From positions 27,488 through 91,487 of IMG/VR virus record IMGVR_UViG_3300028392_000048: a stretch of DNA of 64,000 bases. The stretch is one strand, 5' to 3'. Shown piece by piece: positions 27,429 to 64,000 of the stretch. Numbering within the stretch: the stretch's first letter is position 1; every line of letters begins with the position of its first letter. The position numbers and the translations under genes are program-made. The notes beneath the pieces were generated by a model. The model worked only from the letters and a program-made list of their open reading frames with translations. It ran no database searches and had not been told where the DNA came from. This DNA is from a virus.

Positions 27429-27613
27429 AGCAAAGGCATTTGGCTAGCTTTAGTTGCTTCGATGTTTTCTTTAATAATCTCGTACATGATCTGACGATCT
27501 TCGAAACCGTATCGCTCCATTAGATCGTTTACAGTAACTCCGCCACGCATGTACCACGAGATTCTAAACAAATCTTCTTTAAAAATCTTTGTTTCTTTTT
27601 CAAGCCTAACCAA
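27425..27613 (-). CDS. 51: gp51-like hub assembly protein, probably expressed by -1 frameshift from gp26-like gene
   Basis: The only start in the upper part of this frame is a TTG at 27613, with no ATG and no clear ribosome site. The 62-residue reading FKEDLFRISWYMRGGVTVND ... ENIEATKASQMPLL matches small hub-assembly (gp51-type) proteins of T4-like phages as I remember them. The same frame stays open upstream and meets the end of the gp26-like gene at a U_UUU_UUC string, so it may be made as a C-terminal extension adding about 77 residues. The stop overlaps that of the convergent plus-strand gene. The gp51 name rests on pattern and position. Confidence 0.55.
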   Translation of the reverse strand: MVRLEKETKIFKEDLFRISWYMRGGVTVNDLMERYGFEDRQIMYEIIKENIEATKASQMPLL

Positions 27614-28534: not shown

Positions 28535-31500
28535 ATGGCAACACCATTATCTGAAGAAACCGCACAAAAACTGTTAGCACAAGGCTCGGGCAATAGTGCA
28601 GCTCAACCGCAACAAGCTGGTCTAAATGCTGCTGGCGCAAACAAAGGTTTAAAAGATCTATCCGATGGCGCGGCCAGTTTATATTTTGGATTTAATAGAT
28701 TAAACAGCGGAACTGATGCAGCCACAGCTGGATTAGCAGCGTTATCTAAAGGTGCTCAAGCTGTTGGATTGAATGCACTGGGTAAAGGTTTAGATTTATT
28801 TGGCGGTGCGTTATTACAACAAAAAACTAATATGGATAAAGCTAGTGCCGAGTTAGGCATTGGCGGCAATAATATTGGATTGTTTGTTAGAATGGCAGGA
28901 GATGCAGGACTAACTACGCAACAATTCTCTGAAGTAATCAAACGAGCTGATGGAAGTATTGGCGGATTAGGTATCACAGCACAGCAAAGTGCGTTAAATT
29001 TTAGTAAAGTTCAGAAACAAATTGTAGAAACTGGTGATCAGTTGAACAAGATGGGTATCAGTGCGCAAGAGCAAGCTGAAATCACAGCAATGGCTACAAT
29101 GAATGATGCCAAAAGAAATGCTAATGATAAAGCTGGACAAGCTGCTATCGCCAAGAGTGCTATTGATTTAGCAATGAGTTTAGATGAAACGGCAAAAATT
29201 ACTGGCCAAAGTCGTCAAGCTATCATGGACAGCATTAAAGCTGAAGAGAAAAAACCTTTAGCACAGTTAGCCATGATGCAAATGGACGAAAAGCAACGAG
29301 AAAATTACGAAAAAGTCCAACAGCAAGTGCAAAAACTAGGCCCTGGATTTATGAGCCTGACAACAGAAATTGCCACAGGTGGAGTGCAAACTAAAGAAGG
29401 TTTGGCCATGTTGCAGGCGATGGGACCAGAAGCAGCTAACAAATATCAAGCAGCTACTGAACTTATGTTGAATGCCAAAACTGACGAGCAGAAAAAAGTA
29501 GCGCAAGCTCAAATGGATGAAGCACAAGCGGCTGTTCAACGTCGTATGGCTGATGAAGAATTTAAACGGTTAGTCAAGAGCGGAACAGCAGAACAACAAC
29601 AAGCTGCGGCTAATCTTGTCATGGGCAATAAAGCCATGATGAGTGTACAAAGTGAAGCAAACAAAAACGGCGGCGACTATGTAAAAGCAATTAAAGATCA
29701 ACGAGAAGCTGTGCAAGCTACTCAAGCTGGTTTGAAAGTAGATGAAAACGGCAAAGCAAAAGCAACGCCTGAAGCAGACGAAGGACAAAAAGTTGCTCAA
29801 GATTTAAATGCAATGAACAAAGCAGCTGCAATAGCAGCCGGAGGCCTTTCTCATAATTTTGAAGATGTAAACAAAAAATTAGCTACCACGCCTGCTTATA
29901 TAGATGCTATGAACGCAGCTATGAAGAAAGTTTCTGGCGGTGCTACTACAATGGAGCAAGCTGAAAAAGCTCCTTCAAAAATTGCTAAAGGTTTAAACGA
30001 AATAGTTTCGGGAGGAAAAGAAGGTCCTACTAAAACTACAGGCGGTGCTAGTAGTTTGCCTAAAGACTACGAGCCAACTAAAAAACGTGCAGGCGGAACA
30101 CTAGCAGAAACTGGAAGTGCTGTAGAACCTGAAGATGCTATTGTCAAAATACACAAAGGTGAAACTGTATTAAATCCTGATGCTACTAAAGCTATGGGCA
30201 AACAACTAAGTGCTGGAAGTAAAGCTCCAGGAGGAGTAAATTTTTCTGAAATTAGCAAATCAGTATCCACTTCTATTAGTAGCATGTCAGGTGGCGGCTC
30301 AACTGAAACCAAACAAGTACAAAATGACAGTAGCAAAGCTGCTGAAAAAGAATTGGCAGCTGTTCGAGAACAGATGCAAGCTGAGCGAGCTGCTCTTAGA
30401 GAAAAATTAAAAGCTCAAATGGGTGACGGTAGCAAGTTAGGTGGAAGTAAAGTTTCTTATGAAATGCGGACTGGAGACGAAGGTAAAGCAATAGGTGACA
30501 AATATAAGGCTATAATGGAGCCTTTACAAAAACAAATTGAAGCTGGCATTAGTTGGGAAACTACTAAAAAAGCTTCTGCAATTGAAGAAACTAAAAAAGT
30601 AGTAGAAGAACAAACTAAAATATCATTTTCTGGAAATGCAAAACAATTAGAAGCGTTTAAATCAAAAACAAAAGATGAAGATAATTTCTTTGGAGACACT
30701 AAGAAAAAAACTTCTGCTGAATTAGCTGATCAGGCAGCTAAGAAAGATGAAATATTTAAAGCCGCTGAGCTTGCAAGAAGCGTTGTAGGATACAATGTTA
30801 AAGGTCTTAGTGATGATGCTATAGCTGCAATATTGCCTATTAGTGCAAGTATGGATGACTTTTATATAGATATGAACGATAATATACAAAGTTTTTCCAA
30901 TGACAGCGCAAATAATTTGAAAAAAATAACAGACAACGAGCAAGCATCTTCAACAATTAAGATATCGGCATCGGAAGCTGCGCGAAAAGTATCTGAAGAT
31001 ATGGGATTAAAAAGTATAGAATCTGCAACAGTTGCAGGAAAAGCCCAAGAACAATATCATTCACAATTTACAGAAAGTCAGCAAAAAATAATTGACGACT
31101 ATAAAGGATACAGTGAAGAAAACAGATCGTTCCATGCAAAAGCTATGGAAAAAGGAGCCAAAGAAGATGCTGAAACAGCACAGATGATCGGTGAACGAAT
31201 TATTAAAATGAAAGCAGAAATTGGTGATCGTCAAGCAACTACCGAAGAACTTGCTGCAATTGAAAACGAAACACTTAATAAAGCAATGTTTGAAAAGCAA
31301 GCGGCATCTAAAAGAGAAATGCAAGATGTCATGGAGAATCTTAACGAATATAGTGCTACAAGAGAAAAAGAATTAAAGCAACAAGCAGCTAACGAACAAG
31401 TAAGTATGCAAGAAGAAACAGTTGCAAAAATATCAGAAGTTACAAAAACAGCACAGGCAGACGCACTTGAAAATGCAAATACAACCGTAAAAATTAACGG

Positions 31501-32218
31501 AAAAATTGTAGATCCTAATAGTCCAGAAGCTAAAGCAGTTATTGCTCAAGCAGAATCTGCAAAATCACAGATGAATAAAATGCTTGGTGGAATGATTCCT
31601 AAAAGTGCAGACATAGCAGGTAAGGTAGGAGATTTGACTAAAGGAAAAAAATCAGGAGATGTAGGATATGTCACCGAGCAAGCTAACAAATTAACTGGAA
31701 GTTTTGGAGATATTATCGGTGGCAAAGGTGGCATGCTTGGCGATATGTTTAATCCTAAAATTGTTAACAAAGTAAGTGATGAAGAATTTGCCAAACTCAC
31801 AGCAAAAAATAAAACAGAAGGTGCACCAAAACCTGCTGCAACTGCTAGTGCTCCTAAAACTACTGAAGCGGCCGCAAAGAAAGAAGAAACAAAAACAACA
31901 GGTGCACCAAAACCTGCTGCAACTGCTAGTGCTCCTAAAACTACCGAAGCGGCCGCTAAGAAAGAAGAAACAAAAACAACAGGTAAACCTGGAGAATCAG
32001 AACAAGCAAAAGCTGCGGCAACTAAAGAAGCACCTAAAGAAGCACCTAAAGAAGCACCCAAAGCAAAAACAGCTGAGGCTACCTTAAAAGATTTGAACGA
32101 CCAGCTAATCATGTTAAATAGACATATGGTAGAATTAATTAATCACAGTGCCACTACAGCCGATGCTAGTAGCAAAACAGCAAAGACAGCGGCAAAATCA
32201 ACTGGTAGAGCATTTTAA
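28535..32218 (+). CDS. Tail tape-measure candidate (1,227 aa)
   Basis: A long Ala/Gln/Lys/Glu-rich, mostly helical protein. A Gly-rich break near residue 515 (KRAGGTLAETGSAVEPEDAI then VKIHKGETVLNPD) resembles the GG..G..xPE.i..hkGE.vl element often seen in phage tape-measure proteins. The C-terminus has two 27-residue tandem repeats (81-bp repeat, 31820-31981) and KEAP repeats. It lies between the gp26-like gene and the portal. T4's equivalent is gp29 (590 residues), so this would mean a much longer tail. An internal virion protein is the main alternative. The ribosome site is weak. Confidence 0.5.
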   Translation: MATPLSEETAQKLLAQGSGNSAAQPQQAGLNAAGANKGLKDLSDGAASLYFGFNRLNSGTDAATAGLAALSKGAQAVGLNALGKGLDLFGGALLQQKTNMDKASAELGIGGNNIGLFVRMAGDAGLTTQQFSEVIKRADGSIGGLGITAQQSALNFSKVQKQIVETGDQLNKMGISAQEQAEITAMATMNDAKRNANDKAGQAAIAKSAIDLAMSLDETAKITGQSRQAIMDSIKAEEKKPLAQLAMMQMDEKQRENYEKVQQQVQKLGPGFMSLTTEIATGGVQTKEGLAMLQAMGPEAANKYQAATELMLNAKTDEQKKVAQAQMDEAQAAVQRRMADEEFKRLVKSGTAEQQQAAANLVMGNKAMMSVQSEANKNGGDYVKAIKDQREAVQATQAGLKVDENGKAKATPEADEGQKVAQDLNAMNKAAAIAAGGLSHNFEDVNKKLATTPAYIDAMNAAMKKVSGGATTMEQAEKAPSKIAKGLNEIVSGGKEGPTKTTGGASSLPKDYEPTKKRAGGTLAETGSAVEPEDAIVKIHKGETVLNPDATKAMGKQLSAGSKAPGGVNFSEISKSVSTSISSMSGGGSTETKQVQNDSSKAAEKELAAVREQMQAERAALREKLKAQMGDGSKLGGSKVSYEMRTGDEGKAIGDKYKAIMEPLQKQIEAGISWETTKKASAIEETKKVVEEQTKISFSGNAKQLEAFKSKTKDEDNFFGDTKKKTSAELADQAAKKDEIFKAAELARSVVGYNVKGLSDDAIAAILPISASMDDFYIDMNDNIQSFSNDSANNLKKITDNEQASSTIKISASEAARKVSEDMGLKSIESATVAGKAQEQYHSQFTESQQKIIDDYKGYSEENRSFHAKAMEKGAKEDAETAQMIGERIIKMKAEIGDRQATTEELAAIENETLNKAMFEKQAASKREMQDVMENLNEYSATREKELKQQAANEQVSMQEETVAKISEVTKTAQADALENANTTVKINGKIVDPNSPEAKAVIAQAESAKSQMNKMLGGMIPKSADIAGKVGDLTKGKKSGDVGYVTEQANKLTGSFGDIIGGKGGMLGDMFNPKIVNKVSDEEFAKLTAKNKTEGAPKPAATASAPKTTEAAAKKEETKTTGAPKPAATASAPKTTEAAAKKEETKTTGKPGESEQAKAAATKEAPKEAPKEAPKAKTAEATLKDLNDQLIMLNRHMVELINHSATTADASSKTAKTAAKSTGRAF
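31820..31981 (+). repeat. Two 81-bp tandem repeats inside the tape-measure candidate
   Basis: Two adjacent 81-bp units (starting 31820 and 31901) encode two copies of GAPKPAATASAPKTTEAAAK plus KEETKTT. They differ at only two visible positions. Three imperfect 12-bp units encoding KEAP follow at about 32029-32064. Recent slippage duplication in a flexible linker is likely. Confidence 0.9.
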
Positions 32219-50871: not shown

Positions 50872-50900
50872 TAATAACTTGATAGTTTTTGGAGCTTACA

Positions 50901-53900
50901 ATGGCAGAATTTAAATTAGGAAGATTACGTTTTATATGGCAAGGTGCATGGTCTAGTGCCACAGCAACTTATGTTAAAGACGATATCGTTCGATACGGCG
51001 GCAAAACATATATGTGTGTCACTGGTCACACACCTAACGCTAATTTTTATACAGATTTAACTGTAAATTCCTACTGGCAACAAGTGTCAGACGGCTCCAC
51101 TTGGATGAACAATTGGGCCGTTAGTACCTATTATAAAGTTAATGATCTTGTAGCGTATGGCGGAAGATTATATATTTGTACAACAGGGCATACTAGTAGT
51201 TCAAGTCTTGGCACGGGCACAGCTGGCACCGAAACTACAACAGGTTTAGAAGCAGATATTGGAAAATGGAACTTGTATGCAACTGGTTTTAATTGGGTAT
51301 CCGCTGGATGGAATACATCAACTAGATACAAAATTGGAGATGTTGTAAAATATAACGGTATATCATACTATTGTAATACAGGGCATACTAGTTCTGCAAC
51401 AACAACATTAGGTCTTGAAGATCAATCAAGTTATTGGGATGTTTATACTAAAGGTCTTAATTGGATATCTGCTGGATGGACTACATCTACTAGATATCGT
51501 ATCAATGATGTTGTGCTTTACGGCGGCCAAACTTACATATGTAATCTTGGACATACCAGTGCATCATCTGCAACATCGGGCTTAGAAGCCGATCAAGGCA
51601 AGTGGGACTACTTTAACAAGGGTATTAATTATTTAGGAACATGGAGTCCTAGTTCTGTTCGTTATAAAGTTAATGACGTTGTAAAATACGGTGCGGATGT
51701 TTATATTTGTACAGCATATCATACTTCTCAAACAGCATTTGATTCAAATTCTTGGTCAATTTTTATTGCCGGCCTGCAATTTTATAATAGTTGGACTACC
51801 GGAGTAGTTTATCAAATTGGTGATTTAGTTACATACGGTGGCTATGCTTTTATAGCGCAAAGACTAAACACCAGTGTAAATCCTGAAAGCGATGTACTTG
51901 CATCAGGCGGAAATTGGCAGTTGTTTACTACTGGATTTAATTTCAGAGGTGATGCATTATTTGACGGAACTCAAAGTTATAAAGTAGGCGATGTAGTACG
52001 TCAAAACGGTTATACTTATACGGCATTACTTGATGCACCGAACGCAACTTCAGTACAAGGTACAGGCAATGCAACATACTGGTCTAGACTCAATAGTGGA
52101 ATTTATTGGAATCCAAGTTCTCAAACATTCACAGGAGTTACAGGAACCAATGTTGTAGGTACTGGACAAGACGCTACATTTAATGTTACTATAAGCAACA
52201 CTTATTATCTTGTTGTAAAGAATGCAGGTGGTACAGGTTATGCTACTAACGATACTATTAAAATTTTAGGAACAAGTGTTGGCGGAATTAGTCCAGCAAA
52301 TGATATCATTGTAACAGTATCGGCACAAACAAGCGGCGTGATTGGTGCTGTTACTAATACTGGTTATTCAACAACTTGGGCGACCAGTACAATATATGTA
52401 CTAGGCGATGCTATTACATACGGCAATAGCAGTTTTATTTGTGTACAAGCACATACCGCATCTAGCGGAAATTCACCAGCAAGTGACACAGTTGGAGCAT
52501 ATTGGAATTTACTAGCAGCTGGTGCAATTACAAGTGTTATGACCACACAGGGCGATATGATATATCAAGGCCCGTCAGGACCAACAAGATTGCCAATTGG
52601 ATCATCAGGACAAATACTTGGAGTAACTCCTTCAGGTATCCCTGCTTGGAATTATTTTGGTGTCGTTAGTAATGTGTTCTATGTGTCTGCAACTAATGGT
52701 GTAGATGCACCGTTGCCTTCATATGGAAATACATTAGACCGCCCATGGAAAACTATTGCATATGCTTGTGCCCAAGTATTAGCTGGAACAGCATTTACAA
52801 ATACTACAACGCTACTAACAAAAAACAAAAATTTCTTAGTAGCTGAAATGTACAATTGGATGACATATCAAGCAGCCAATAATAACACACCATTTAGCGG
52901 TTCGTCAGTTTACGATCCGTATAAAACTCAGCGTGATGCAGGATATGTTATAGATGCAATCATATACGACCTGGCACGTGGCGGCAATAGTCAAACAGTA
53001 GCTGCAGCATATTCTTATTTCCAACAAGGATCTAATTTATTCTATAATACAGCAACAACAAACGCAATGCCATTTATTATTGCATCGTTAGGTCGTCTTG
53101 CTACAATTTCACAAAATATTATAGCTAATAGTGCGCCAGCATCAACTTATCAAAATACAACAGGTGGATCTGCGGCATTAACAACGCTAGCAATTACTGG
53201 TATTACTAGTTTGAATAACCAAGTAACGTTTAGTTTTGCATCGCAAACTCGTTCACCATTTGTTATAGGTGAAACTATAACAGTTACTTCAGTTGTCCCT
53301 ACTAGCTATAATACAACATATACAGTAGTAGCATTATCAGCAACTAGTGTAACTGTTTCAAGTACAAATACAGCATCATATACTAGCGGTGGAAATATTG
53401 CAGGATCTGCTATTAGTCAGGCAATTGATACTAACTATACAGCTGAAACTGGTTCAAGTTCCGCTATTACTACATTATTTGGAATAATTACAACAGCATT
53501 AACAGCTCAAAGTACAGCAAGTATTCCTCCTGCAAACCAAGGTGTTACTAGCACAATTAATATTAAAAATGGAACATACCAAGAAGTACTTCCTATCAGC
53601 GTAGCTGAAAATACAGCACTAGTTGGTGATGAACTACGTGGTGTTGTTGTTGAACCTCTAATCACTTCGGCTGGATTTACTGGTTCTGTGAGCGGTAATA
53701 CCCTTACAGCATCAGCAATCACATCAATTTTATCAAGTCAAAATATTACGGCTGCAGCAGTTGGTATTTACGGATCAACTGGTAGCGGCGGTGTACTTAC
53801 AGTTGCTAGTACAACCGGTTTGCAAACTGGTAACAAATTTGTTATTACTGGCACTGGCGGTGGCGGTGTATCAGCTGGCACATATTTTGTAGGAGCTGTT

Positions 53901-56900
53901 TTAACTGCTACGACTTTAACACTCTCAAGTAGTTATGCAAATGCTCTTGCCGGAACATATATAACTTTAACTCCAGCAGCTACTATTACTGGTACTACTT
54001 TTACAGCAACTGGTAATATTATAAGCGGAATGTTTGTAAGCGGTTCTGCAACAATTACAGCACCATTACAAATAACAGCACAACTAACTGGTGCAAGTAG
54101 TACAGCGGCAGCGAATACAGCGTCAACAGGTTCAAGCGGAAGTTTTAACTTAACCGTAACCAGCAATACTGGTATTGCTGTTGGTATGTTTGTATCGGGT
54201 AACGGCGGTGCTATCAGCGGTATTCCAGCAAATACATATGTAACTTCTATCAATGGCACAACAATAAAATTAAGCAACGAATTAACTTCAGGCGTTAGTA
54301 CTACAGTTTATTTCTTCTATGCTGGCGGAACAGGAACATATACTGTTAATAATATTAATGGTTGGTCAATTAGTAGTACATCATTAGTTGCAAGTTATAA
54401 TACAGCTAACATGTTCTATGTACGAAATGGCGCCGGCATCAGAAATATGACTTTATCTGGTTTAACAGGAACGTTAACATCTGCAAATGCATTTGGATCG
54501 TACAGACCAACAGCAGGTGCTTATGTAAGTTTAGATCCAGGCACCGGGCCAGCAGATTCTTCAGTGTGGATTTTTAGAAAATCGCCTTATGTACAAAACG
54601 TTACTACATTTGGTACTGCATGTGTTGGATTAAAAATTGACGGAACATTGCACAACGGCGGAAACAGAAGTATAGTTGCCAACGATTTCACACAGGTACT
54701 AAGTGATGGTATTGGTTGCTGGTGCACTGGATCTAATGCCTTAACTGAATTAGTTTCAGTGTTTGCATACTATAACACAGCAGGATATCTAGCAGAAGCT
54801 GGTGGTAAAATTCGTGCTACTAATGGAAATAGTTCTTATGGAACATTTGGTGTAGTAGCAGAAGGTTACGATGCTTCAGAAACTCCAATTATTGCAAACG
54901 TAAACAATAGAGCATTTCAAGCACAGATTGCTAACGTATATACAGATAATTCAAATAAAATTTACCGTTTAGAATATTCTAATGCAGGTTCTGCTTACAA
55001 TACAGCAACATATTCGTTTAATAGTTCAACTGGATATGGAGTAAGTGCTGTTGCAAATGAATTTAGAGATAATGCTGCTTATGAAGTTCGTTTATTAACA
55101 AACGGATCTAGTTATGTTACCATTACAAATACAGGACAGACTGGTAATACATACCAAATAACAATTGCGGCAACTGATATTGGAATTACTAATGCATACA
55201 AAGGTATGCGATTAAATCTAATTGGCGGTGCAGGTGTAGGACAAACAGGTTTTGTTGCTGATTTCAATTCAGGAAGTAAAATTGCATTAATGGCTAAAGA
55301 AAGTTTTGCACCTTTAACTATTACTGTGACAACAAATGCTAGTGCAAGCAATACCGCCGCAATCATTAATCCTAATACGACTGGCGCAGGCGGTGGCTAT
55401 ATGACAGCTACTGGAACACTTACTGGATCATTTACTCCTGGTATGATTTTAACTAGTGCTGGAACTATTACAGCTGGAACATATATTACTAGTACTAATA
55501 GTGGAACAATTGGCTCAGCAAGTCTTGCAAGTGTTATTGGTAGCACTACTGGAACAATTGGCTCAATTACAGGAACTGGTCCCTGGTCAGCCACTATTAC
55601 CAACATGAGTTCAACAACTGGATTTTATGTCGGTATGCCAATAACAGCAACAACTGGTACTGGAACATTATACGGTGGAAGTCCTACTAGCGTATTAGTT
55701 ACAAGTATTGTTAGTACTACTAGTATAACATATACAGTTTTTGGAGGTACTACGCCAACAGCTGGTACGGTAACTAACGTTTCCAGTATATTGTTATCAG
55801 CTGGCGCAACAAGTACTGGTATAACACCGTATGCTTTATTGCTTGGTGGAGCTATAACAGCTGGAACTTATATTGTAGCGCAAATTAGCGCAACAGGAGC
55901 CACAGCTCTTGCAACAGCTACATTCACTGGAACTAGCGGAACTACTTCAATAACATTGACTTCGTTTACCGTTGGTTCTATTAGTAATGTAGTAATTGGA
56001 CAATTTATTGCACCAATTAGCGGTATGCTTGCTAACACATATGTAACTGCGGTTAACTATCTTACAGGTATAATTACTATTAGTAACACGTTAGTCGGTA
56101 ACGTAAGCGGGTCAACAAGTGTTTACACAGCTGGCGGATTAGGAACATACGGTATTAATCAAACTGCAACTGGAACGCCAACAACAAGTTTAAGCTATAG
56201 TGTCAGTGCAAGTCAAACACGTACTAGTGCAGCTATTTCTGCTACACAAAATACATTAACAGTTGGTAGCAACGTTAGTGTTTATAACGGCATGCCTATG
56301 TATGTAAGCGCCACGGTAGGAACAAATTTATTACCTGCTACATTATATTATGCAATGGCTGTAGTTCCTAACAGTAATTTATTCAGTGTTGGTACTAGTA
56401 GCGTTGCTACAAGTGCAATAATAATTACTAGCTCATCACCATCGCCTGTATCAGTATATGCAGCTGGGTGGGATCACGTTGTTCTAGGAACTCCTATTGT
56501 AGCTAATTTAGACGTTACCACTCAATACATTATTGAACCTCGACTAACATTCTCCAGTCCATCTTTCACTCCAAGTAGCTCTACACAAATATCAGGAACA
56601 TGGATTGATTGTGTATACGGTGATGATGTTGTTACATATTCTAACATAAGTAGTACAAGCTCAGGCGCAGGAACACTAGCTACGTTTAATGTAGTTAAAA
56701 CTGGAGTATCTTACGCAGTTACCCAAAGTGCATCCGGCGGCGGATATGTAATTGGGGAAGTACTAGTAATAGCAGGAACTAGTTTAGGAGGCTCGGCAAG
56801 TAATGCCATTAATATCGTAGTAACTAATATTGGAGTTAGCGGATCAATCACAAACTTTACATTTACTGGTACAGGTAGCGGTGGTAGATATATTGCAATT

Positions 56901-58718
56901 GCCAATAGCGGAACTGCAAACCAATATAGTACTAATGGTACATCTTGGACATCCGGTGGAGCACTATCTGCATCAGGAGCATGGACTTCAATAGCATACG
57001 GTGCTGGTGTATTTGTAGCAATTGGTGCTGGTACTTCATCAACAACAACATCCACTGGTACATCTTGGACATTAGGCGGCGCATTACAAGCAGGTTCGTG
57101 GAGTGCAATATGTTACGGTAATGGAGTTTTTATGGCCGTGGCATCTGGTTCAACAGCAGCCGCATATTCGTCAAACGGCTCATCGTGGGCAGCAACTGGA
57201 GCATTACCAGCTAGCACATCATGGTCTGGAGTAGCATATGGCAACGGAACATACGTAGCGATTGCTGCAGGTGGAACACAAGCAGCATACAGCATAACAG
57301 GTACAACTTGGGTTACAGCAACCTTGCCAACTACAGCATATTGGAGTTCTGTTGCATTCGGAAGAGGAATTTTTGTTGCAATAGCTACAGGAAGTAATGC
57401 ATCAGCATATTCTTTAGATGGAATTACATGGGTAGCTAGTCCAGCAGGATTACCTGCAACGTTACAATGGACAAAAGTTCGTTACGGACAAGGCTTGTTC
57501 TTTGCAGTTGCAGCTAATTCTACAACAGTTGCTACCTCTGAAGACGGCATTAATTGGACATCTAGAGCACTACTAACTGGAACAAACTGGCAAGGAATTG
57601 CGTTTGGAAATCCAACTAGTACTCCGTTATGGGTAGCCATAACTGCAGGAACAACTACAGCAAATTCTATAGTAGCAGGCGCAACAACACAAGCCAGAGC
57701 TGTTGCATCAGCTGGTAGTATTTCTTCAGTTAGAATCATTGAGCCAGGAAGTGGTTATGCAACTACTCCTGTAATGACTATAACTGATCCTAATGCAACA
57801 ATTGCAGCTACTTGGACAGTCAGAACTGGCGTTGGCGCACTTGCTAATCCGACATTTGCAAGTAGAGGATCATTATATGTAAGTGCAAGTGCTACAGTGT
57901 CCGGTAATGGATACAGTGATTCGTTCCAAACTGGTGCGTATGTTAATATATCAGGATTGTACACAACGCCAATATCAGGAGCAAACGTTGTATTCTCTGG
58001 TAATAGTACGGTTTATAAACTTGTATCAGTATCAAATGTAACATCAAGCGGCGGCGGACTTACTCCTAATAATGCATATTTTAATATTAATCCTGCATTA
58101 ACAGTGGCTAATGCACCTACACACAACACTACTACTACGATGAGAATTAAGTATAGTCAAGTGCGATTAACAGGACATGATTTCTTAAATATTGGAACTG
58201 GAAATTTCTCCAACACCAATTATCCAGGAACTCCGCTAATAGCTGCAGATTCAACAAAACAAACAATTGCAAACGGCGGTGGCCGTGTGTTCTTTACAAG
58301 TACTGACCAAGATGGTAACTTTAACGTTGGTAACTTGTTTAATGTTGTACAAAGTACAGGTTCTGCTACTTTAAATGCTAGTGCGTTCTCGCTAGCAGGA
58401 CTAACATCGCTGACATTGGGTACTACCTCATTAGGCGGATACAATGCTACAATTACTTCATTCTCGTCAGATCCGTATTTTACGGCTAATTCAGACAATG
58501 TTGTGCCAACTCAAAAGGCAATTAGAGCATATATAAGCAGCCAAATTGGTGGCGGCGGAAGTAATTTGAATGTAAATACCTTAACGGCAGGTGTGATTTA
58601 TGTATCTGGTAACACGATAACAACCACAACAGGCGTTTACATCAATGTACCGAGTAAAATGAATTTTACCGGTGGAATCGATGGAATGCCTTTAGCATTC
58701 AACTTTTTATTAAGATAA
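50901..58718 (+). CDS. Giant tail-fibre protein B, expanded paralogue of fibre A
   Basis: The start chosen is ATG 50901, with GGAG seven bases upstream; a TTG at 50889 is in frame but lacks a ribosome site. The 2,605-residue protein repeats the plan of fibre A: eight CBM5/12-like modules (to about residue 545, with a GxGY-type insert between modules 7 and 8), the shared beta-helix domain (RPWKTIAYACAQVL, DPYKTQRDAGYVIDAIIYDL), a BNR-like propeller (about 1890-2240, with SWSAICYGNGVFMAVASG) and a shared C-terminus. It is about 700 residues longer, mostly from Thr/Gly/Ser-rich beta repeats at about 53,690-54,390 and 55,320-56,460. A host-binding or virion-surface role is inferred. The two copies may be alternative or nested fibre parts. 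Confidence 0.8.
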   Translation: MAEFKLGRLRFIWQGAWSSATATYVKDDIVRYGGKTYMCVTGHTPNANFYTDLTVNSYWQQVSDGSTWMNNWAVSTYYKVNDLVAYGGRLYICTTGHTSSSSLGTGTAGTETTTGLEADIGKWNLYATGFNWVSAGWNTSTRYKIGDVVKYNGISYYCNTGHTSSATTTLGLEDQSSYWDVYTKGLNWISAGWTTSTRYRINDVVLYGGQTYICNLGHTSASSATSGLEADQGKWDYFNKGINYLGTWSPSSVRYKVNDVVKYGADVYICTAYHTSQTAFDSNSWSIFIAGLQFYNSWTTGVVYQIGDLVTYGGYAFIAQRLNTSVNPESDVLASGGNWQLFTTGFNFRGDALFDGTQSYKVGDVVRQNGYTYTALLDAPNATSVQGTGNATYWSRLNSGIYWNPSSQTFTGVTGTNVVGTGQDATFNVTISNTYYLVVKNAGGTGYATNDTIKILGTSVGGISPANDIIVTVSAQTSGVIGAVTNTGYSTTWATSTIYVLGDAITYGNSSFICVQAHTASSGNSPASDTVGAYWNLLAAGAITSVMTTQGDMIYQGPSGPTRLPIGSSGQILGVTPSGIPAWNYFGVVSNVFYVSATNGVDAPLPSYGNTLDRPWKTIAYACAQVLAGTAFTNTTTLLTKNKNFLVAEMYNWMTYQAANNNTPFSGSSVYDPYKTQRDAGYVIDAIIYDLARGGNSQTVAAAYSYFQQGSNLFYNTATTNAMPFIIASLGRLATISQNIIANSAPASTYQNTTGGSAALTTLAITGITSLNNQVTFSFASQTRSPFVIGETITVTSVVPTSYNTTYTVVALSATSVTVSSTNTASYTSGGNIAGSAISQAIDTNYTAETGSSSAITTLFGIITTALTAQSTASIPPANQGVTSTINIKNGTYQEVLPISVAENTALVGDELRGVVVEPLITSAGFTGSVSGNTLTASAITSILSSQNITAAAVGIYGSTGSGGVLTVASTTGLQTGNKFVITGTGGGGVSAGTYFVGAVLTATTLTLSSSYANALAGTYITLTPAATITGTTFTATGNIISGMFVSGSATITAPLQITAQLTGASSTAAANTASTGSSGSFNLTVTSNTGIAVGMFVSGNGGAISGIPANTYVTSINGTTIKLSNELTSGVSTTVYFFYAGGTGTYTVNNINGWSISSTSLVASYNTANMFYVRNGAGIRNMTLSGLTGTLTSANAFGSYRPTAGAYVSLDPGTGPADSSVWIFRKSPYVQNVTTFGTACVGLKIDGTLHNGGNRSIVANDFTQVLSDGIGCWCTGSNALTELVSVFAYYNTAGYLAEAGGKIRATNGNSSYGTFGVVAEGYDASETPIIANVNNRAFQAQIANVYTDNSNKIYRLEYSNAGSAYNTATYSFNSSTGYGVSAVANEFRDNAAYEVRLLTNGSSYVTITNTGQTGNTYQITIAATDIGITNAYKGMRLNLIGGAGVGQTGFVADFNSGSKIALMAKESFAPLTITVTTNASASNTAAIINPNTTGAGGGYMTATGTLTGSFTPGMILTSAGTITAGTYITSTNSGTIGSASLASVIGSTTGTIGSITGTGPWSATITNMSSTTGFYVGMPITATTGTGTLYGGSPTSVLVTSIVSTTSITYTVFGGTTPTAGTVTNVSSILLSAGATSTGITPYALLLGGAITAGTYIVAQISATGATALATATFTGTSGTTSITLTSFTVGSISNVVIGQFIAPISGMLANTYVTAVNYLTGIITISNTLVGNVSGSTSVYTAGGLGTYGINQTATGTPTTSLSYSVSASQTRTSAAISATQNTLTVGSNVSVYNGMPMYVSATVGTNLLPATLYYAMAVVPNSNLFSVGTSSVATSAIIITSSSPSPVSVYAAGWDHVVLGTPIVANLDVTTQYIIEPRLTFSSPSFTPSSSTQISGTWIDCVYGDDVVTYSNISSTSSGAGTLATFNVVKTGVSYAVTQSASGGGYVIGEVLVIAGTSLGGSASNAINIVVTNIGVSGSITNFTFTGTGSGGRYIAIANSGTANQYSTNGTSWTSGGALSASGAWTSIAYGAGVFVAIGAGTSSTTTSTGTSWTLGGALQAGSWSAICYGNGVFMAVASGSTAAAYSSNGSSWAATGALPASTSWSGVAYGNGTYVAIAAGGTQAAYSITGTTWVTATLPTTAYWSSVAFGRGIFVAIATGSNASAYSLDGITWVASPAGLPATLQWTKVRYGQGLFFAVAANSTTVATSEDGINWTSRALLTGTNWQGIAFGNPTSTPLWVAITAGTTTANSIVAGATTQARAVASAGSISSVRIIEPGSGYATTPVMTITDPNATIAATWTVRTGVGALANPTFASRGSLYVSASATVSGNGYSDSFQTGAYVNISGLYTTPISGANVVFSGNSTVYKLVSVSNVTSSGGGLTPNNAYFNINPALTVANAPTHNTTTTMRIKYSQVRLTGHDFLNIGTGNFSNTNYPGTPLIAADSTKQTIANGGGRVFFTSTDQDGNFNVGNLFNVVQSTGSATLNASAFSLAGLTSLTLGTTSLGGYNATITSFSSDPYFTANSDNVVPTQKAIRAYISSQIGGGGSNLNVNTLTAGVIYVSGNTITTTTGVYINVPSKMNFTGGIDGMPLAFNFLLR
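50910..52530 (+). repeat. Eight CBM5/12-like modules in fibre B
   Basis: Same module type as in fibre A, with YiC.tGHTS turns more regular here. Modules 3 and 4 are very similar to each other (both contain SAGW-TSTRY), suggesting later duplication. A separate beta insert of about 90 residues lies between modules 7 and 8. Confidence 0.75.
54519..54616 (+). repeat. 98-bp block identical to fibre A
   Basis: Second copy of the exact 98-base identity with 47997-48094. The match ends at GGTAC versus GGTAC followed by C/T divergence, and flanks fall back to ordinary paralogue divergence. Confidence 0.85.
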
Positions 58719-59105: not shown

Positions 59106-60902
59106 ATGGGAAGAAGAGTCAATACACTGGGCGGAAATCCTGGAGGCGGTTCGTCGGTAACGAAGACCGCTACAACAGCATTTACAGAAACATATTTTAG
59201 TAGCGGACAATTAACACAACTTACAGCAACTAGTGCAGGTTATAATGTTACATTGCCGGCGCCTAGTGCTTTTCCAAAAGTATCAGTTTCATACTGGAAT
59301 GATTCTACTTACACGATGACTGTAACAACTCCTACCGGAGTATTTGCAGGCACCGGCGGAAGTCAAGTAACTGTACAAAGTATTGCTGCAGGTCAAACAA
59401 TACAAATTGTATCAGACGGTACAAACTATTATTTAGAATGGGAAAATTTACCAGCAAGATTAGCAACATCTGGTGGATTCCTAGCCCAAGCAGGCGCAGG
59501 TAATGCAGTTGCGTGGTCAAGTCCTTTTATTAGTGTACCAACAACATCGTTGACTCTTGGTACATATAACAAAAGCAATACAAACGTATCAAAATCACTA
59601 GCTGCATCATCTACAAACGGTTCTAGTTTAAGTTATGCAATTACTAGCGGTACTACGCTATTAACAGGATTATCATTAAACAGCTCTGGTGTACTAACTG
59701 GTACCATGGCTAACGCTGCAAATGCATCATATACTGTCGATGTTACTATTACAGACACTGTTGGCACTCAACGAGCTGTGTATACATTTTATGTGTCGTT
59801 ACTAAACCAAATTCCAGTATGGAGTACAACAAGTATTGGTAGTGCTTCAGGGTTGGTTAACAGTTCGTTTAGCACAACAGTTGTTGCTACCGCAGGTACT
59901 GGAACGATTACATATTCATTAGTTAGCGGAAGTTTACCTCCTGGTTTAAGTTTAAACGGTACTACGGGTGTTATTAGCGGTAACTGTAGTCAATCTCCAG
60001 GCACACAAACATATAATTTCACAATTAGAGCTACAGACGGCCCTTATACAACTGATCAGGCACTTTCTTGGGCAATTACAACCACAATACCTTCTGGAAC
60101 ACAATTGTATACTGGACGCGGCGGCCACTCAAGTTTTGGTGGTAACAGCAACTCAAACGGCGAACAAAACTACTACACTTGGACAGCACCATCAGGTGTA
60201 AACAGTGTGTCTGCAATTGTTGTAGGTGGTGGCGGCGGCGGTTACTATGGTTGGGCAGTTTGCGGCGGTGCCGGTGGCGCATTAATCTGGGCCAACGGTA
60301 TACCTGTAACTCCAGGTTCTGGCTATTTTGTAAACGTAGGAAATGGTGGTTGTTGGAGTCAATCTCCAGGCGGTTGTAGTGTATTTTGCGGAGATAGCAC
60401 ATTTATGATTGCCTACGGCGGATGCTGTGGATGCGGCGCAGGTTGCGCATACATGGGTGGATCAAACACAGGCTATTGTGCAAGTTATGGAAACGTAGCA
60501 TGGTCCAGCACAGCTGGCGGCGGCGGCGGCGCAGCTGGTTATTGCTGTAACAATACATATACATACTGTAACTGTGGATACGGCGGCGGTGGTGGCTCAG
60601 CTTGTCAATATCATAGCTCAACTTACGGTACAGCAGGCGGCGGCGGCGTTGGAATTATTACCCAAGGAACCAACGGCGCTGGCGGCTCAAACGGAATTTC
60701 AGGATGCGGAGGATCGGGTGGCCAAAACGGTGGACATGGAGAACCATATAGCAACGGTATTGGCAACGGTTACGGCCAAGGCGGTTGCTACGGCGGTGGC
60801 GGCGGCGGTGGCGGAACATCACACGGCGGCGGTTGGGGCGGCACAGGAGCGGTTAGAATTATTTGGGGTTCAGGCAGAAGCTACCCTAATGCTTCAAGTT
60901 AA
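59106..60902 (+). CDS. Adhesin candidate: Ig-like domains plus glycine/cysteine-rich tip
   Basis: A 598-residue protein opening GRRVNTLGGNPGGGSSVTKT. Residues about 140-330 hold two putative Ig-like (He_PIG type) domains, the second with YSLVSGSLPPGLSLNGTTGV. From about residue 360 the sequence is dominated by Gly runs (VVGGGGGGYYGWAVCGGAGG) with about 16 cysteines in the last 240 residues, ending GAVRIIWGSGRSYP. Gly-run tips of this type recall the polyglycine sandwich of gp38-like adhesins of T4 relatives. It is the last fibre gene before the chaperone, where distal adhesins usually sit. Receptor binding is inferred; the cysteine richness is unusual. Confidence 0.7.
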   Translation: MGRRVNTLGGNPGGGSSVTKTATTAFTETYFSSGQLTQLTATSAGYNVTLPAPSAFPKVSVSYWNDSTYTMTVTTPTGVFAGTGGSQVTVQSIAAGQTIQIVSDGTNYYLEWENLPARLATSGGFLAQAGAGNAVAWSSPFISVPTTSLTLGTYNKSNTNVSKSLAASSTNGSSLSYAITSGTTLLTGLSLNSSGVLTGTMANAANASYTVDVTITDTVGTQRAVYTFYVSLLNQIPVWSTTSIGSASGLVNSSFSTTVVATAGTGTITYSLVSGSLPPGLSLNGTTGVISGNCSQSPGTQTYNFTIRATDGPYTTDQALSWAITTTIPSGTQLYTGRGGHSSFGGNSNSNGEQNYYTWTAPSGVNSVSAIVVGGGGGGYYGWAVCGGAGGALIWANGIPVTPGSGYFVNVGNGGCWSQSPGGCSVFCGDSTFMIAYGGCCGCGAGCAYMGGSNTGYCASYGNVAWSSTAGGGGGAAGYCCNNTYTYCNCGYGGGGGSACQYHSSTYGTAGGGGVGIITQGTNGAGGSNGISGCGGSGGQNGGHGEPYSNGIGNGYGQGGCYGGGGGGGGTSHGGGWGGTGAVRIIWGSGRSYPNASS

Positions 60903-60927: not shown

Positions 60928-61554
60928 ATGACGTTATATATTAAAATTGATGAAGACGGAAACCCAGTAGATTTTCCAATAACAGAAGAAAACATAGAAC
61001 ATTATTTTGAATTTATTGGGCCAATTACGCCTGAATCATTAAAAGAACATGGATTTGCAGAACTAATTAACGGCGAAAATCCTGGACTAGGGATCATGCC
61101 GCAATATGAAGTTCTAGATATAGTTCGAACAAATATTGTTAAAAATCCAGATGGCACCATTGAACAAAAATGGATTGTCCAGGAGTTATCAAATCACGAA
61201 AAAATGAGACGTTGGGTTCTTCCAGCAAGGGGTTATAAATTACTAATGAGTGACTGGACTCAAGTAGCTGATAGTCCATTATCTGATGAAGAAAAAGCAT
61301 CATGGCGAGCATATCGAGCAGCCTTACGAGATATGACAGATACTGATTTGACAAATATCAAAGATATTGCTGAAATTTCTTGGCCAGAAGCACCTGGTCA
61401 GCTATCAAGTTCTGATTCAAAATGGCTTCCTGAGCCACCAATATATATTGCACCTCCTAGCAATCCTGATTGGCCAGACGACGTAGATCCTAATTTAGTA
61501 CCGTTAACTCCTCAGCGACCCGCTCCGGCAAGTGGTAAATCGCTTGAAGAATAA
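60928..61554 (+). CDS. Tail-fibre assembly chaperone (Phage_TAC-type)
   Basis: A 208-residue protein with the segment GYKLLMSDWTQVADSPLSDE followed by WRAYRAALRDM (about residues 102-133). That segment (LL..SDWTQ, W..YR.aLRD, then WP..P) is typical of phage tail-assembly chaperones of the DUF4376/APC group. The N-terminal half (YIKIDEDGNPVDFPITEENI) is also seen in such proteins; the C-terminus is Pro-rich. It lies directly after the adhesin candidate, the usual place for a chaperone that helps fold or attach the tip, and is closed by a terminator. It is probably not in the mature virion. Confidence 0.75.
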   Translation: MTLYIKIDEDGNPVDFPITEENIEHYFEFIGPITPESLKEHGFAELINGENPGLGIMPQYEVLDIVRTNIVKNPDGTIEQKWIVQELSNHEKMRRWVLPARGYKLLMSDWTQVADSPLSDEEKASWRAYRAALRDMTDTDLTNIKDIAEISWPEAPGQLSSSDSKWLPEPPIYIAPPSNPDWPDDVDPNLVPLTPQRPAPASGKSLEE

Positions 61555-61569
61555 ACAACTAACAAATTA

Positions 61570-61596
61570 AAAAATCCCGCAAGTTGCGGGATTTTT
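61570..61596. terminator. Bidirectional terminator between convergent genes
   Basis: AAAAATCCCGC pairs with GCGGGATTTTT around a five-base loop. The stem is followed by T-runs on both strands. It separates the fibre operon from the minus-strand halogenase gene. Confidence 0.93.
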
Positions 61597-61600
61597 ATGA

Positions 61601-62785
61601 TTAAATTTTAAAATAATTGTAACCAAATACCGTATCTACTAAATCAAGTCCGCTTGGACCATAGACCCAATTAAAATTACCATAAAAGTTGTTTGTTTTT
61701 ATTTTTTTCATCAACAACAATGCATTGTGAAAACTCATACTTTCATTTAATTTTTCTTTTGATACGTTTACAGTTTTATTCCAAAATTCAGTACTATAAA
61801 TAGATCCGCCGTGATATTTGAAATAAAACATATCTTTTAATGCATGAACGTGTGTAATGTATCTAGAATTTATTGCTATGTCGTCAGTTTCGCCTGTAAT
61901 ATATTCAAAGAACAATCTATTAATTGCATCATAATTCCATAAAGAATTACCAAACATTGGTTCAAAGAATAATGCTGTGTTTCCATTTTTAATTATTCTA
62001 TTCTCTAAAACGTTTTTTGCATAGTAAGGAGTAAATTTGTATTCAATATTTTCTAATTCTTCTATTGAAATGTTTATTTCTTTAGCAAAGTTTTTCTTAG
62101 CATCTTCTATACTAACAAGATTATCGTTAAACAAATATCCATTACTAATTCTAGTAGACAAAGGAATCTGAAACATCCACCCATCGACAGTAGCACGATG
62201 TACAGTATATTGCCAATCTGTACCATCGCCCGGAATATTATGTATCAGCGCATGATTTAATACTGGACTTTGTAGAACAAAATAATTATCTAAATCATTA
62301 GAAAATCCTCTACTATCCATTACAAAATCATATTGATATTCTGCATCATCTACAGTTACAGTTGCATGTTCTACTCCATTTACTAACGAATTAACATGTC
62401 CTTCTATTATTTTGAATTTATTACCCCATGTATTTTTTAGTCTGGGCAATGCAAAATCTTTTAATTTAAATGTATTAAAATGCAAAGCAAATACGCCGTC
62501 GCCCAGTGTTAGTAGCGGCCCATGAAAATCTTGATCCCTCCAATTTTCATACTTAGTAGTCCATTTGATTGTTGCATCAAGATGATGCATGTCTTTTTCA
62601 AAATCAAAATTTAAACCTGCTTTGAGTGCTTTTGAAAATGTTCCGTTAGTACTTTCTCCGATACCAAAGGCTGGAATGTTAGGATTATATATCAGTGTAA
62701 CTTCCCAGCCTGCCGGAAGGTATGCTAAAAAATGGCAAGCAGATTGTATACCAGAACTGCCGGCGCCTAATATTGCCAGTTTCAT
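61601..62785 (-). CDS. Flavin-dependent halogenase-like protein
   Basis: A 394-residue flavoprotein of the tryptophan-halogenase family, which uses FADH2, oxygen and halide to halogenate organic substrates. Visible features: the FAD-binding LGAGSSGIQSA (Gly at 7, 9, 12), GIGESTNG (41-48), a Lys at 74 in DATIKWTTKYENW that aligns with the catalytic Lys of PrnA, DGWMFQIPLS (201-210) matching W-x-W-x-I-P with Phe for the second Trp, and FFEPMFGNSL. It is shorter than PrnA (about 540). The cyanophage Syn10 enzyme VirX1 is a characterised viral relative preferring iodide. Its ATG overlaps the upstream carbamoyltransferase stop (TAATG). Substrate unknown; a flavin monooxygenase without halogenase activity cannot be excluded. 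Confidence 0.75.
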   Translation of the reverse strand: MKLAILGAGSSGIQSACHFLAYLPAGWEVTLIYNPNIPAFGIGESTNGTFSKALKAGLNFDFEKDMHHLDATIKWTTKYENWRDQDFHGPLLTLGDGVFALHFNTFKLKDFALPRLKNTWGNKFKIIEGHVNSLVNGVEHATVTVDDAEYQYDFVMDSRGFSNDLDNYFVLQSPVLNHALIHNIPGDGTDWQYTVHRATVDGWMFQIPLSTRISNGYLFNDNLVSIEDAKKNFAKEINISIEELENIEYKFTPYYAKNVLENRIIKNGNTALFFEPMFGNSLWNYDAINRLFFEYITGETDDIAINSRYITHVHALKDMFYFKYHGGSIYSTEFWNKTVNVSKEKLNESMSFHNALLLMKKIKTNNFYGNFNWVYGPSGLDLVDTVFGYNYFKI

Positions 62786-64000
62786 TAGCTGTTCCTGATA
62801 GTAATTAGTTTGTTGAATTCTGGTAAAAACAGATATTCGATATCAGAATGCTGTAACGTCCAAATAGCATCTTCTAGTGTTTCAACTAACGGTTCGCCAC
62901 CTAAGTTGAAGCTAGTATTGAACAAGATGGGACATCCTGTTGTATTATGAAATTCTTTGATTAAGTTGTAGTAATGAAAGTTTTGTTCTTCTGTAACTGT
63001 TTGTATACGGCAAGTTCCATCTACGTGGATAATGCTTGGAATTTTTTCAGAAACACCAGGCTGGCAATTTACAGCATACATCATAAAAGGACTGTCTTCC
63101 ATGCCACGTAAATCAAACCACTCTTTAGCATATTCTGCTAAAATACTACCAGCAAATGGTCGGAAATATTCACGATGTTTTACACCATTAACAAAATCTT
63201 TTCCATCTTCAAACCGTGGATCAAATAATACACTTCTATTTCCTAATGCCCGTGGCCCGTTTTCGCTAGAGCCTTGGAATAATGTGACAATGTTTTTCTT
63301 AGTTAATAACTCTACAATATCACTATAAGTAGCATCTTGTATTTCAACATCATGTTGCATTGATATATCGATAACTTGTTCCGTTGTGTAACTATGAGCT
63401 GGGCCTAAATACAATGTATCATGTTTTGCTGGAGTACGATTTCCTGTTAATGAATGCCAATGCATTAGAGCTGCTCCAATAGCGGTACCAGCATCATTAC
63501 TAATAGGTTCTACATAGAAATTAATACCGTTGTCTTTAAGAGCTTGTAGGTAATGATAATTAGCAACACAATTTAATCCATACCCGCCGCTTAACACAAC
63601 ATTTTTATGTCCGCTTATATCTACGGCTTGTTGAATTAATTTAACAACTTGAGATTGTGTTTGTGTCTGGCAAGCATATGCAAGATCTCTTCGATTTTCT
63701 AGCATTGTCAAATCATCATTATTATGTTGATCTAAAAATTCAAATAATCCAGTATTAATCAATGCACCGTTAGGGTATGTTGGTACTACAATATTTCTAT
63801 TAGCAAGAGGTGCTATACTTGTATCATCAAAAAGTGGAGGTATTGCAGGATTATCTTTACCATAAGGAAATAACCCCATAGTTTTACCAGCTTCAATAGG
63901 ACTCCAACCGCAATATTGAGTTACAGCTTCGTATGTTTTAGTAATGCCTGCTCGATCTGTAATTAAAGCGTGATGCGTCTTACCCGGCTCATCGTACAAA
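62785..64000 (-). CDS. Carbamoyltransferase, NodU/CmcH/TobZ type (5' end outside window)
   Basis: At least 404 residues read from the right edge; the family is about 550-600 residues, so roughly 150-170 N-terminal residues, including the first His/Asp motifs, lie outside. A TTG at 63999 is not a credible start. Visible motifs: GKTMGLFPYGK, VVLSGGYGLNCVANYHYL, LFQGSSENGPRALGNRSVLF, REYFRPFAGSILAE and LFNTSFNLGGEPLVETLEDA, covering the YrdC-like and C-terminal parts. Family members move a carbamoyl group from carbamoyl phosphate to a hydroxyl on nodulation factors, antibiotics or, in some environmental phages, probably modified DNA bases. The stop overlaps the halogenase start. Confidence 0.88.
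   Translation of the reverse strand, partial: LYDEPGKTHHALITDRAGITKTYEAVTQYCGWSPIEAGKTMGLFPYGKDNPAIPPLFDDTSIAPLANRNIVVPTYPNGALINTGLFEFLDQHNNDDLTMLENRRDLAYACQTQTQSQVVKLIQQAVDISGHKNVVLSGGYGLNCVANYHYLQALKDNGINFYVEPISNDAGTAIGAALMHWHSLTGNRTPAKHDTLYLGPAHSYTTEQVIDISMQHDVEIQDATYSDIVELLTKKNIVTLFQGSSENGPRALGNRSVLFDPRFEDGKDFVNGVKHREYFRPFAGSILAEYAKEWFDLRGMEDSPFMMYAVNCQPGVSEKIPSIIHVDGTCRIQTVTEEQNFHYYNLIKEFHNTTGCPILFNTSFNLGGEPLVETLEDAIWTLQHSDIEYLFLPEFNKLITIRNS

Follow-up and report, generated by a model that had tools for sequence, protein, structure and literature searches.

The 64,000-nt window, by which we mean the whole stretch of DNA analysed, is the last 64 kb (positions 27,488 to 91,487) of the 91,487-bp virus record IMGVR_UViG_3300028392_000048, and ends in two overlapping minus-strand genes: a NodU/CmcH-type O-carbamoyltransferase (62785..64000) and, downstream of it, a short halogenase-fold flavoprotein of 394 amino acids (aa), the HALS family (61601..62785). 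An earlier reading of the letters alone, here called the sequence-only reading, had taken these for a halogenase-like gene and a carbamoyltransferase joined in one translational unit. Both genes are indeed intact: 61601-62785 is a complete 394-aa open reading frame (ORF), 62785-63999 is an open ORF of 404 aa, and the carbamoyltransferase stop and flavoprotein start have one base in common (CTAATG; the TAATG overlap lies at 62783..62787, minus strand), suggesting translational coupling. Pfam identifies both of the expected families in the window proteins (Trp_halogenase, 4.8e-31; Carbam_trans_C, 1.1e-57; Carbam_trans_N, 8.7e-14). The same reading placed the pair beside the fibre locus, on the other strand, and closed it with a terminator, and a bidirectional terminator-like hairpin with a 12-bp stem and U tracts on either side (61570..61596) does divide the pair from a convergent fibre-chaperone gene. 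The fold of the hairpin has a z of -4.67, equalled by 0/200 shuffles; a simple terminator scan proves nothing by itself, since it returned 2 terminator-like sites where 1.7 were expected.

Because the window ends at the record end, the carbamoyltransferase gene is cut there. A 345,369-bp phage record (G002) that is 99.986% identical to the window over all 64,000 bases supplies the whole 596-aa ORF, of which the C-terminal 404 residues lie inside the window, and together with the cut at the record end this rules out a frameshifted or absent N-terminus. It also supplies the rest of the operon, which the sequence-only reading had wished to see beyond position 64,000. We label the stretch of this record that shows the complete cassette neighbourhood L003, and give cassette coordinates beyond the window in it. 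There the window is seen to carry the 3′ end of a predicted six-gene operon-like cassette: i) a VirX1-like flavin halogenase of 546 aa (L003:4414-6054); ii) a 2-oxoglutarate (2OG)-Fe(II) oxygenase (L003:6035-6652); iii) a GT9-like glycosyltransferase-fold protein of 311 aa (L003:6657-7592); iv) a second 2OG-Fe(II) oxygenase (L003:7589-8203), these four all outside the window; v) the O-carbamoyltransferase (L003:8211-10001); and vi) the short flavoprotein (L003:10001-11185). Further up, on the opposite strand and outside the window, are two halogenase-family genes of 490 and 494 aa (L003:2892-4364 and 1411-2895), and beyond these a DUF6445/2OG-like gene and then a cupin. The record is that of a T4-related jumbo phage from a lake. 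Among portal proteins, those of jumbo phages such as Phosso, BF, and CBB are nearest to its own (47-50% identity), so that by this marker it is not a cyanophage.

The short flavoprotein has kept the halogenase fold and lost much of the halogenase signature. Comparison of a predicted structure with VirX1, which the sequence-only reading had called for, upholds the fold: the AlphaFold model (predicted local distance difference test score, pLDDT, 94.4) matches VirX1 at Z 29.4 and the Trp 6-halogenase SttH at Z 40.4 over 381 residues (rmsd 3.2), the PF04820 score is 108.5 bits (cut-off 21), and the flavin adenine dinucleotide (FAD) motif GxGxxG is present as GAGSSG. WxWxIP is the name of a further motif with a recognized role in flavin halogenases; in the window protein it reads WMFQIP, and Phe replaces the second Trp throughout an alignment of 52 members, which comprise the window and locus-B proteins together with 50 representatives chosen at 85% identity from 88 short flavoproteins of 350-420 aa. 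The same substitution is found in 8/9 short members from isolate phages; the short member of Campylobacter phage CP21 keeps WxWxIP, with Gln in place of Glu. The Glu-Ser pair is gone from the window protein as well, since an alignment with VirX1 and a Trp halogenase puts EPMFGNS in the place of EPLESTG, and the Glu position varies across the 52 members (E 27, S 15, Q 7, F 2, D 1; the window has F). What survives is the catalytic Lys, as Lys74 (Lys79 in Thal), invariant in 52/52 members including the window protein, with an equivalent in the 9 isolate-phage members. PrnA and PyrH have Lys79, Glu358, and Ser359 of Thal at matching positions (PMC7948982). The substrate region of the window protein is short by 62 residues relative to VirX1, or 71 relative to 5LV9, in one main gap, and its C-terminus is shorter than that of VirX1. 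When 84,980 species genomes were scanned with two peptide patterns, relatives turned up at only 6 loci, 5 of them in metagenome bins. By these alignments the short flavoproteins are a phage subfamily of the halogenase fold that has mostly moved off the halogenase signature; the departure is strong in the window copy, and many phage genes annotated as tryptophan halogenases belong to it.

A motif-intact halogenase does exist in the same cassette, located 3.9 kb upstream of the short flavoprotein and outside the window. VirX1 (PDB 6QGM) is a viral iodinating halogenase, and the 546-aa protein aligns with its residues 18-544 (2e-99), near full length, keeping the Lys, WxWxIP, and Glu-Ser; the pattern of these residues is KWWESNG, the Thr of ESTG having been replaced by Asn. 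The Lys, WxWxIP, and Glu-Ser are likewise kept by the corresponding halogenase in 10/10 loci examined that have the gene block described below, the window phage's included (9 contigs, L068 and L155 being one contig). In the 490- and 494-aa proteins Lys and Glu are retained, but GWILDVP and GWMFSTP stand in place of WxWxIP. Compared with VirX1, the 394-aa protein of the window is a divergent short paralog lacking both WxWxIP and Glu-Ser. Thus the term halogenase-like was apt for its fold, family, and FAD motif, but not for its halogenation motifs; the gene is moreover a variable accessory, and it is the 546-aa gene outside the window that is conserved and has its motifs intact.

Gene neighbourhoods were tallied around three families, using the best 80 loci of each of three sets (at least 586, at least 573, and 119 confirmed loci), so that all tallies are biased towards close relatives; redundancy removal at 90% identity left 65 carbamoyltransferase, 52 short flavoprotein, and 63 halogenase clusters, contig ends truncate some neighbourhoods, and family labels come from custom profiles built from few seeds. 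The order halogenase-2OG-GT9-(2OG)-carbamoyltransferase recurs as a block in 10/63 clusters of VirX1-like halogenases, and a tail-chaperone gene lies within 8 kb in 10/10 of these block clusters versus 1/53 of the others, with contigs often cut. Around the carbamoyltransferase, a chaperone-like family is found in 50/65 clusters and a Gly-rich tip-like family in 24/65; phrog_9740 is matched by all 5 chaperone-like members that were scanned, and tail-fibre-assembly families by 2 of the 5 as well. The short flavoprotein is far less constant. It overlaps the carbamoyltransferase stop in 4/52 of its clusters and has a carbamoyltransferase within 8 kb in 8/52; among the 10 block loci it overlaps the stop in 3, follows another gene in 2, lies beyond the opposite end of the block in inverted orientation in 2, and is not seen in 3. 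The coupling of carbamoyltransferase, halogenase, and oxygenase genes is therefore beyond chance, and the unit is larger than the pair. Conserved synteny of a fibre-linked block thus bears out the coupling that the sequence-only reading had proposed, but the paired halogenase is motif-poor and accessory, and the most constant partner of the carbamoyltransferase is a GT9-like gene.

The carbamoyltransferase has both NodU/CmcH domains, Carbam_trans_N and Carbam_trans_C, and the motif GPRALGNRS; its alignment also displays HHxxH, a motif with a role in metal binding. Solved relatives include 7XB6, GdmN, and TobZ. A NodU-type gene in S-MS29 (OQ504980.1, 172009-173601) encodes a protein 43% identical to it; the S-MS29 genome paper names its carbamoyltransferase pyrBI (aspartate carbamoyltransferase). 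The most constant partner, the GT9-like gene, lies upstream on the same strand in 62/65 carbamoyltransferase clusters and is never missing where there is 3.5 kb of room for it. A 2OG gene of the S-SSM7_119 type was considered as a common partner and discarded, as phmmer matched it in just 3 loci of the carbamoyltransferase set. For the GT9-like model (pLDDT 93.1), Z is 18.8-23.4 against chains of the GT9 class, which include heptosyltransferases such as TibC, and 11.8 against the next class; TibC is the top Foldseek match, close to WaaF and others. A donor-site D-S-x-x-x-H loop aligns with that of WaaC/WaaF, and its Asp226 and His231 are invariant in 59/59 members. At the level of NCBIfam models 47/59 members match heptosyltransferase III at E ≤0.01, all weakly (best 6e-8), and 1/59 matches the TibC model; a search of PDB sequences with the family profile gave 4 chance-like matches and no true relative by sequence.

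The slot behind the carbamoyltransferase is variable, and may hold a flavin-type oxygenase, a 2OG-type oxygenase, or neither. In loci L049 and L158 the block and its flanks are collinear, at 73-95% identity. A short flavoprotein overlaps the carbamoyltransferase stop in L049 but not in L158, where the short flavoprotein is located on the other side; the two proteins are 56% identical. In L229 it is a 2OG-like gene that overlaps the carbamoyltransferase stop, again by TAATG, and a short flavoprotein was not found anywhere in the locus; L075 and L237 have a 2OG-like gene that overlaps the stop by ATGA and is itself overlapped by a flavoprotein; and in L231 a 2OG-like gene begins one base after the carbamoyltransferase. 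PHROG matches were obtained for the 2OG-like genes of L075 and L231 and, weakly, for that of L229.

Our main reason for reading the short flavoprotein of the window as probably an oxidative tailoring enzyme and not a Trp halogenase is that one slot can be occupied by either flavin or 2OG oxygenases. Among known enzymes it then resembles QhpG, a flavin monooxygenase of peptidyl Trp in which a halogenase-like fold has been turned to hydroxylating a macromolecule (PMC7876137), although the likeness in function is putative: the match to the QhpG NCBIfam model is weak (3.4e-4, 19.6 bits), far under the family cut-off of 240, and unlike QhpG the window protein keeps Lys74. It is unlikely that the short flavoprotein is a true halogenase performing hypohalous acid (HOX) chemistry in a rearranged active site, as might be argued from a fold Z of up to 40.4, from WxWxIP in the CP21 protein, and from the invariance of Lys74 in the alignment and the isolate phages, this being the residue that Thal cannot lose (PMC7948982); Glu is missing in 25/52 members, the second Trp of WxWxIP is replaced throughout the alignment and in nearly all isolate members, and the slot itself accepts 2OG-like genes.

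Candidate substrates of the cassette lie among its neighbours. Opposing it on the plus strand are a tail-fibre assembly chaperone (Phage_tail_APC; 60928..61554), the recurrent neighbour of the block; a fibre-tip-like protein with immunoglobulin (Ig)-like domains and a Gly/Cys-rich C-terminal part (59106..60902; Gly_rich_2 at E 7e-4, below cut-off, and phrog_4474, to which PHROG assigns no function); and, upstream of the tip gene, a very long repeat-rich fibre-like protein of 2609 aa, named by eye (50889..58718). The last two are candidate substrates. We tentatively favour the view that the cassette decorates the receptor-binding fibre or tip of the phage itself, a view resting on linkage to fibre genes and not on chemistry, and one absent from the substrates listed by the sequence-only reading (host glycan, secreted compound, or modified base). 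Gene order, gene families, synteny, the gain and loss of motifs, the linkage to fibre chaperones, and the variable slot are observed; from these we infer late expression, the substrate, the order of the steps, and a short flavoprotein that oxidizes rather than halogenates. Expressed late, the set would act on the fibre or tip; the oxygenases would introduce hydroxyls; the GT9-like protein would handle a heptose-like sugar made by phage-encoded nucleotidyltransferase, kinase, and epimerase homologs of the heptose pathway, found at 261-263 kb of G002; the carbamoyltransferase would add carbamoyl to an exposed hydroxyl; the flavin enzymes would halogenate or oxidize aromatic positions; and the presence of one or another oxygenase in the variable slot, or of none, would diversify the decoration in different phages. 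The bolder version, a dedicated phage pathway that hydroxylates, glycosylates, carbamoylates, and halogenates its own fibre tips, with a swappable last oxygenase changing the chemistry of host recognition, is doubtful.

Several observations weigh against fibre tailoring. First, the GT9-like family may not be a working glycosyltransferase. The Asp of the GD motif has a catalytic role in GT9 enzymes, and where E. coli WaaC and WaaF have it the GT9-like family has Arg15, invariant in 59/59 members (the N-terminus being aligned by eye, as hhalign covered the donor loop only). Plant NDH-complex subunits match the same fold at Z 19.4-20.3. In TibC, the N-terminal stretch before the GT-B core is important, and the 311-aa GT9-like model spans TibC residues 92 to 389 with no counterpart to the stretch before 92; membership in the TibC family was rejected for this missing stretch and for a fold likeness near that to WaaF/WaaC. 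Second, GmhA (SIS_2) was not found in G002, nor did S-SSM7 GmhA have a tblastn match there. Third, any halogenase-family gene lies within 8 kb in only 7/65 carbamoyltransferase clusters, and halogenation is therefore not part of the core. Fourth, the window and L058 are 88.4% identical in the carbamoyltransferase and 41.5% in the flavoprotein, a contrast which is no sign of a swap by itself because the two 2OG genes are only 43 and 52% identical; the argument for a slot swap from this low identity was dropped, and the L049 versus L158 and L155 comparison used instead. Fifth, linkage to fibre genes is equally compatible with modification of the host envelope, and the reading in print for the S-SSM6a cluster prefers capsule or secondary metabolite (PMC7824862).

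It is accordingly worth setting out the envelope alternative, which we consider somewhat doubtful: host lipopolysaccharide (LPS), capsule, or O-chain would be modified during infection, a carbamoylated heptose-like residue together with oxidized or halogenated groups hiding the receptor, so that superinfection would be blocked or progeny spared loss to debris. Carbamoylated heptose does occur in the Pseudomonas LPS core, where WapO is the putative heptose II (HepII) carbamoyltransferase, set like ours within a heptosyltransferase pathway (PMC8005017), a likeness by description; the phage locus, unlike WapO, is fibre-linked. LPS heptosyltransferases account for most of the weak NCBIfam matches of the GT9-like family, and in the cyanophages S-CAM3, P-SSM2, and S-CAM1 the GT9-like and carbamoyltransferase pair stands between fibre genes and heptose-pathway genes. 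For cyanophages the hypothesis is also in print: Iyer et al. 2021 proposed capsule decoration or a halogenated metabolite for the S-SSM6a cluster of carbamoyltransferases, halogenase, 2OG oxygenases, and cupin (PMC7824862), a gene set all present in L003. On the other side, the cassette is surrounded by genes for fibre tips and fibre chaperones, and the catalytic Asp of the LPS heptosyltransferases has been replaced.

The second of those published proposals, a small halogenated and carbamoylated sugar or amino acid metabolite, antibiotic-like or signalling, seems to us quite unlikely. The families do match natural-product carbamoyltransferases and halogenases, but no carrier, nonribosomal peptide synthetase or polyketide synthase (NRPS/PKS), or exporter was found among the ten L003 genes scanned (the rest of the genome was not searched), and the steady fibre-chaperone linkage would be left unexplained. 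Finally, a role in carbamoylating (and oxidizing) the bases of the phage DNA, as in 5-carbamoyloxymethylcytosine phages and as the sequence-only reading had allowed, is very improbable: a carbamoyltransferase of phage type acting on 5-hydroxymethylcytosine (5hmC), with the same two Carbam_trans domains and a phage origin predicted by its authors, was found by MetaGPA (PMC8670742), but that enzyme co-occurs with a thymidylate-synthase homolog, whereas PF00303 (the thymidylate-synthase family) was found in 0/2 records here (G000 and G002, possibly incomplete) versus 9/14 control genomes. A Tet_JBP search matched no control genome and hence is uninformative.

As to why phages carry halogenases and carbamoyltransferases, the synteny narrows the question, in that a fibre-linked block with candidate substrates next to it is one of the units that recur. 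Both genes have a history in cyanophages, where prnA and carbamoyltransferase were listed as non-core by Sullivan et al. 2010 (PMC3037559) and a tryptophan halogenase was counted in 20/153 phages by a 2023 review (PMC10452541). The S-SSM6a/S-SSM7 cluster (S-SSM7 being an isolate on Synechococcus WH8109) resembles ours in its carbamoyltransferase (64% identical), GT9-like phrog_8954, halogenase, 2OG oxygenases, cupin homolog, and position near fibre genes; unlike it, the block of the window phage is compact, opening with a VirX1-like halogenase and having an overlapping short flavoprotein after the carbamoyltransferase, and the portal of this phage is nearest to the Phosso/CBB/BF type and not to cyanophages. 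The S-SSM7 methylase SSM7_129, taken from its PF05175 note as the HemK-like methylase counterpart, had no tblastn match in G002 at 1e-4, a threshold that a distant homolog could escape. Searches of the open PMC literature brought up no jumbo phage outside the cyanophages with the compact VirX1-like block, no link of the block to fibre chaperones, no GT9-like partner, and no motif-poor short flavoprotein family with a variable slot, though we do not claim that any of these is unpublished elsewhere.

Other genes near these loci deserve mention. A second carbamoyltransferase, 45% identical to the first, lies at L023:9179-12660 (about 308.2-311.7 kb of G002), in the order carbamoyltransferase, IscU-like gene, 381-aa halogenase-fold gene (its Glu kept, EPMETTP), and IscA-like gene. 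Independent conservation of this second carbamoyltransferase-halogenase pair with IscU and IscA was rejected because the full arrangement is confined to near-identical records (4/15 loci found, L306-L309, G002 among them, with flavoproteins at least 98% identical). On another phage contig (L096:482-3830), a short flavoprotein is followed 1.5 kb on by IscU- and IscA-like genes. Also at L023 (628-3925) are a phage heme oxygenase and ClpS, both by Pfam, with Hsp20-like and 635-aa DnaK-like genes named by eye. In the jumbo phage a subtilase-family (Peptidase_S8) gene stands among fibre-like genes directly upstream of the cassette (L024:5184-6419). PHROG 274, annotated as DNA endonuclease V, matches genes at L003:819-1400, L026:10068-10727, and L229:14525-15046. 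DUF6445 or 2OG-oxygenase models match some of these genes too, and the PHROG label seems misleading for phage annotation. Within the window, a direct repeat of about 81-bp period (31811-31984) lies inside a 1227-aa ORF (28535-32218), and two overlapping 93-bp pieces of it match shifted G002 positions at 95.7%.

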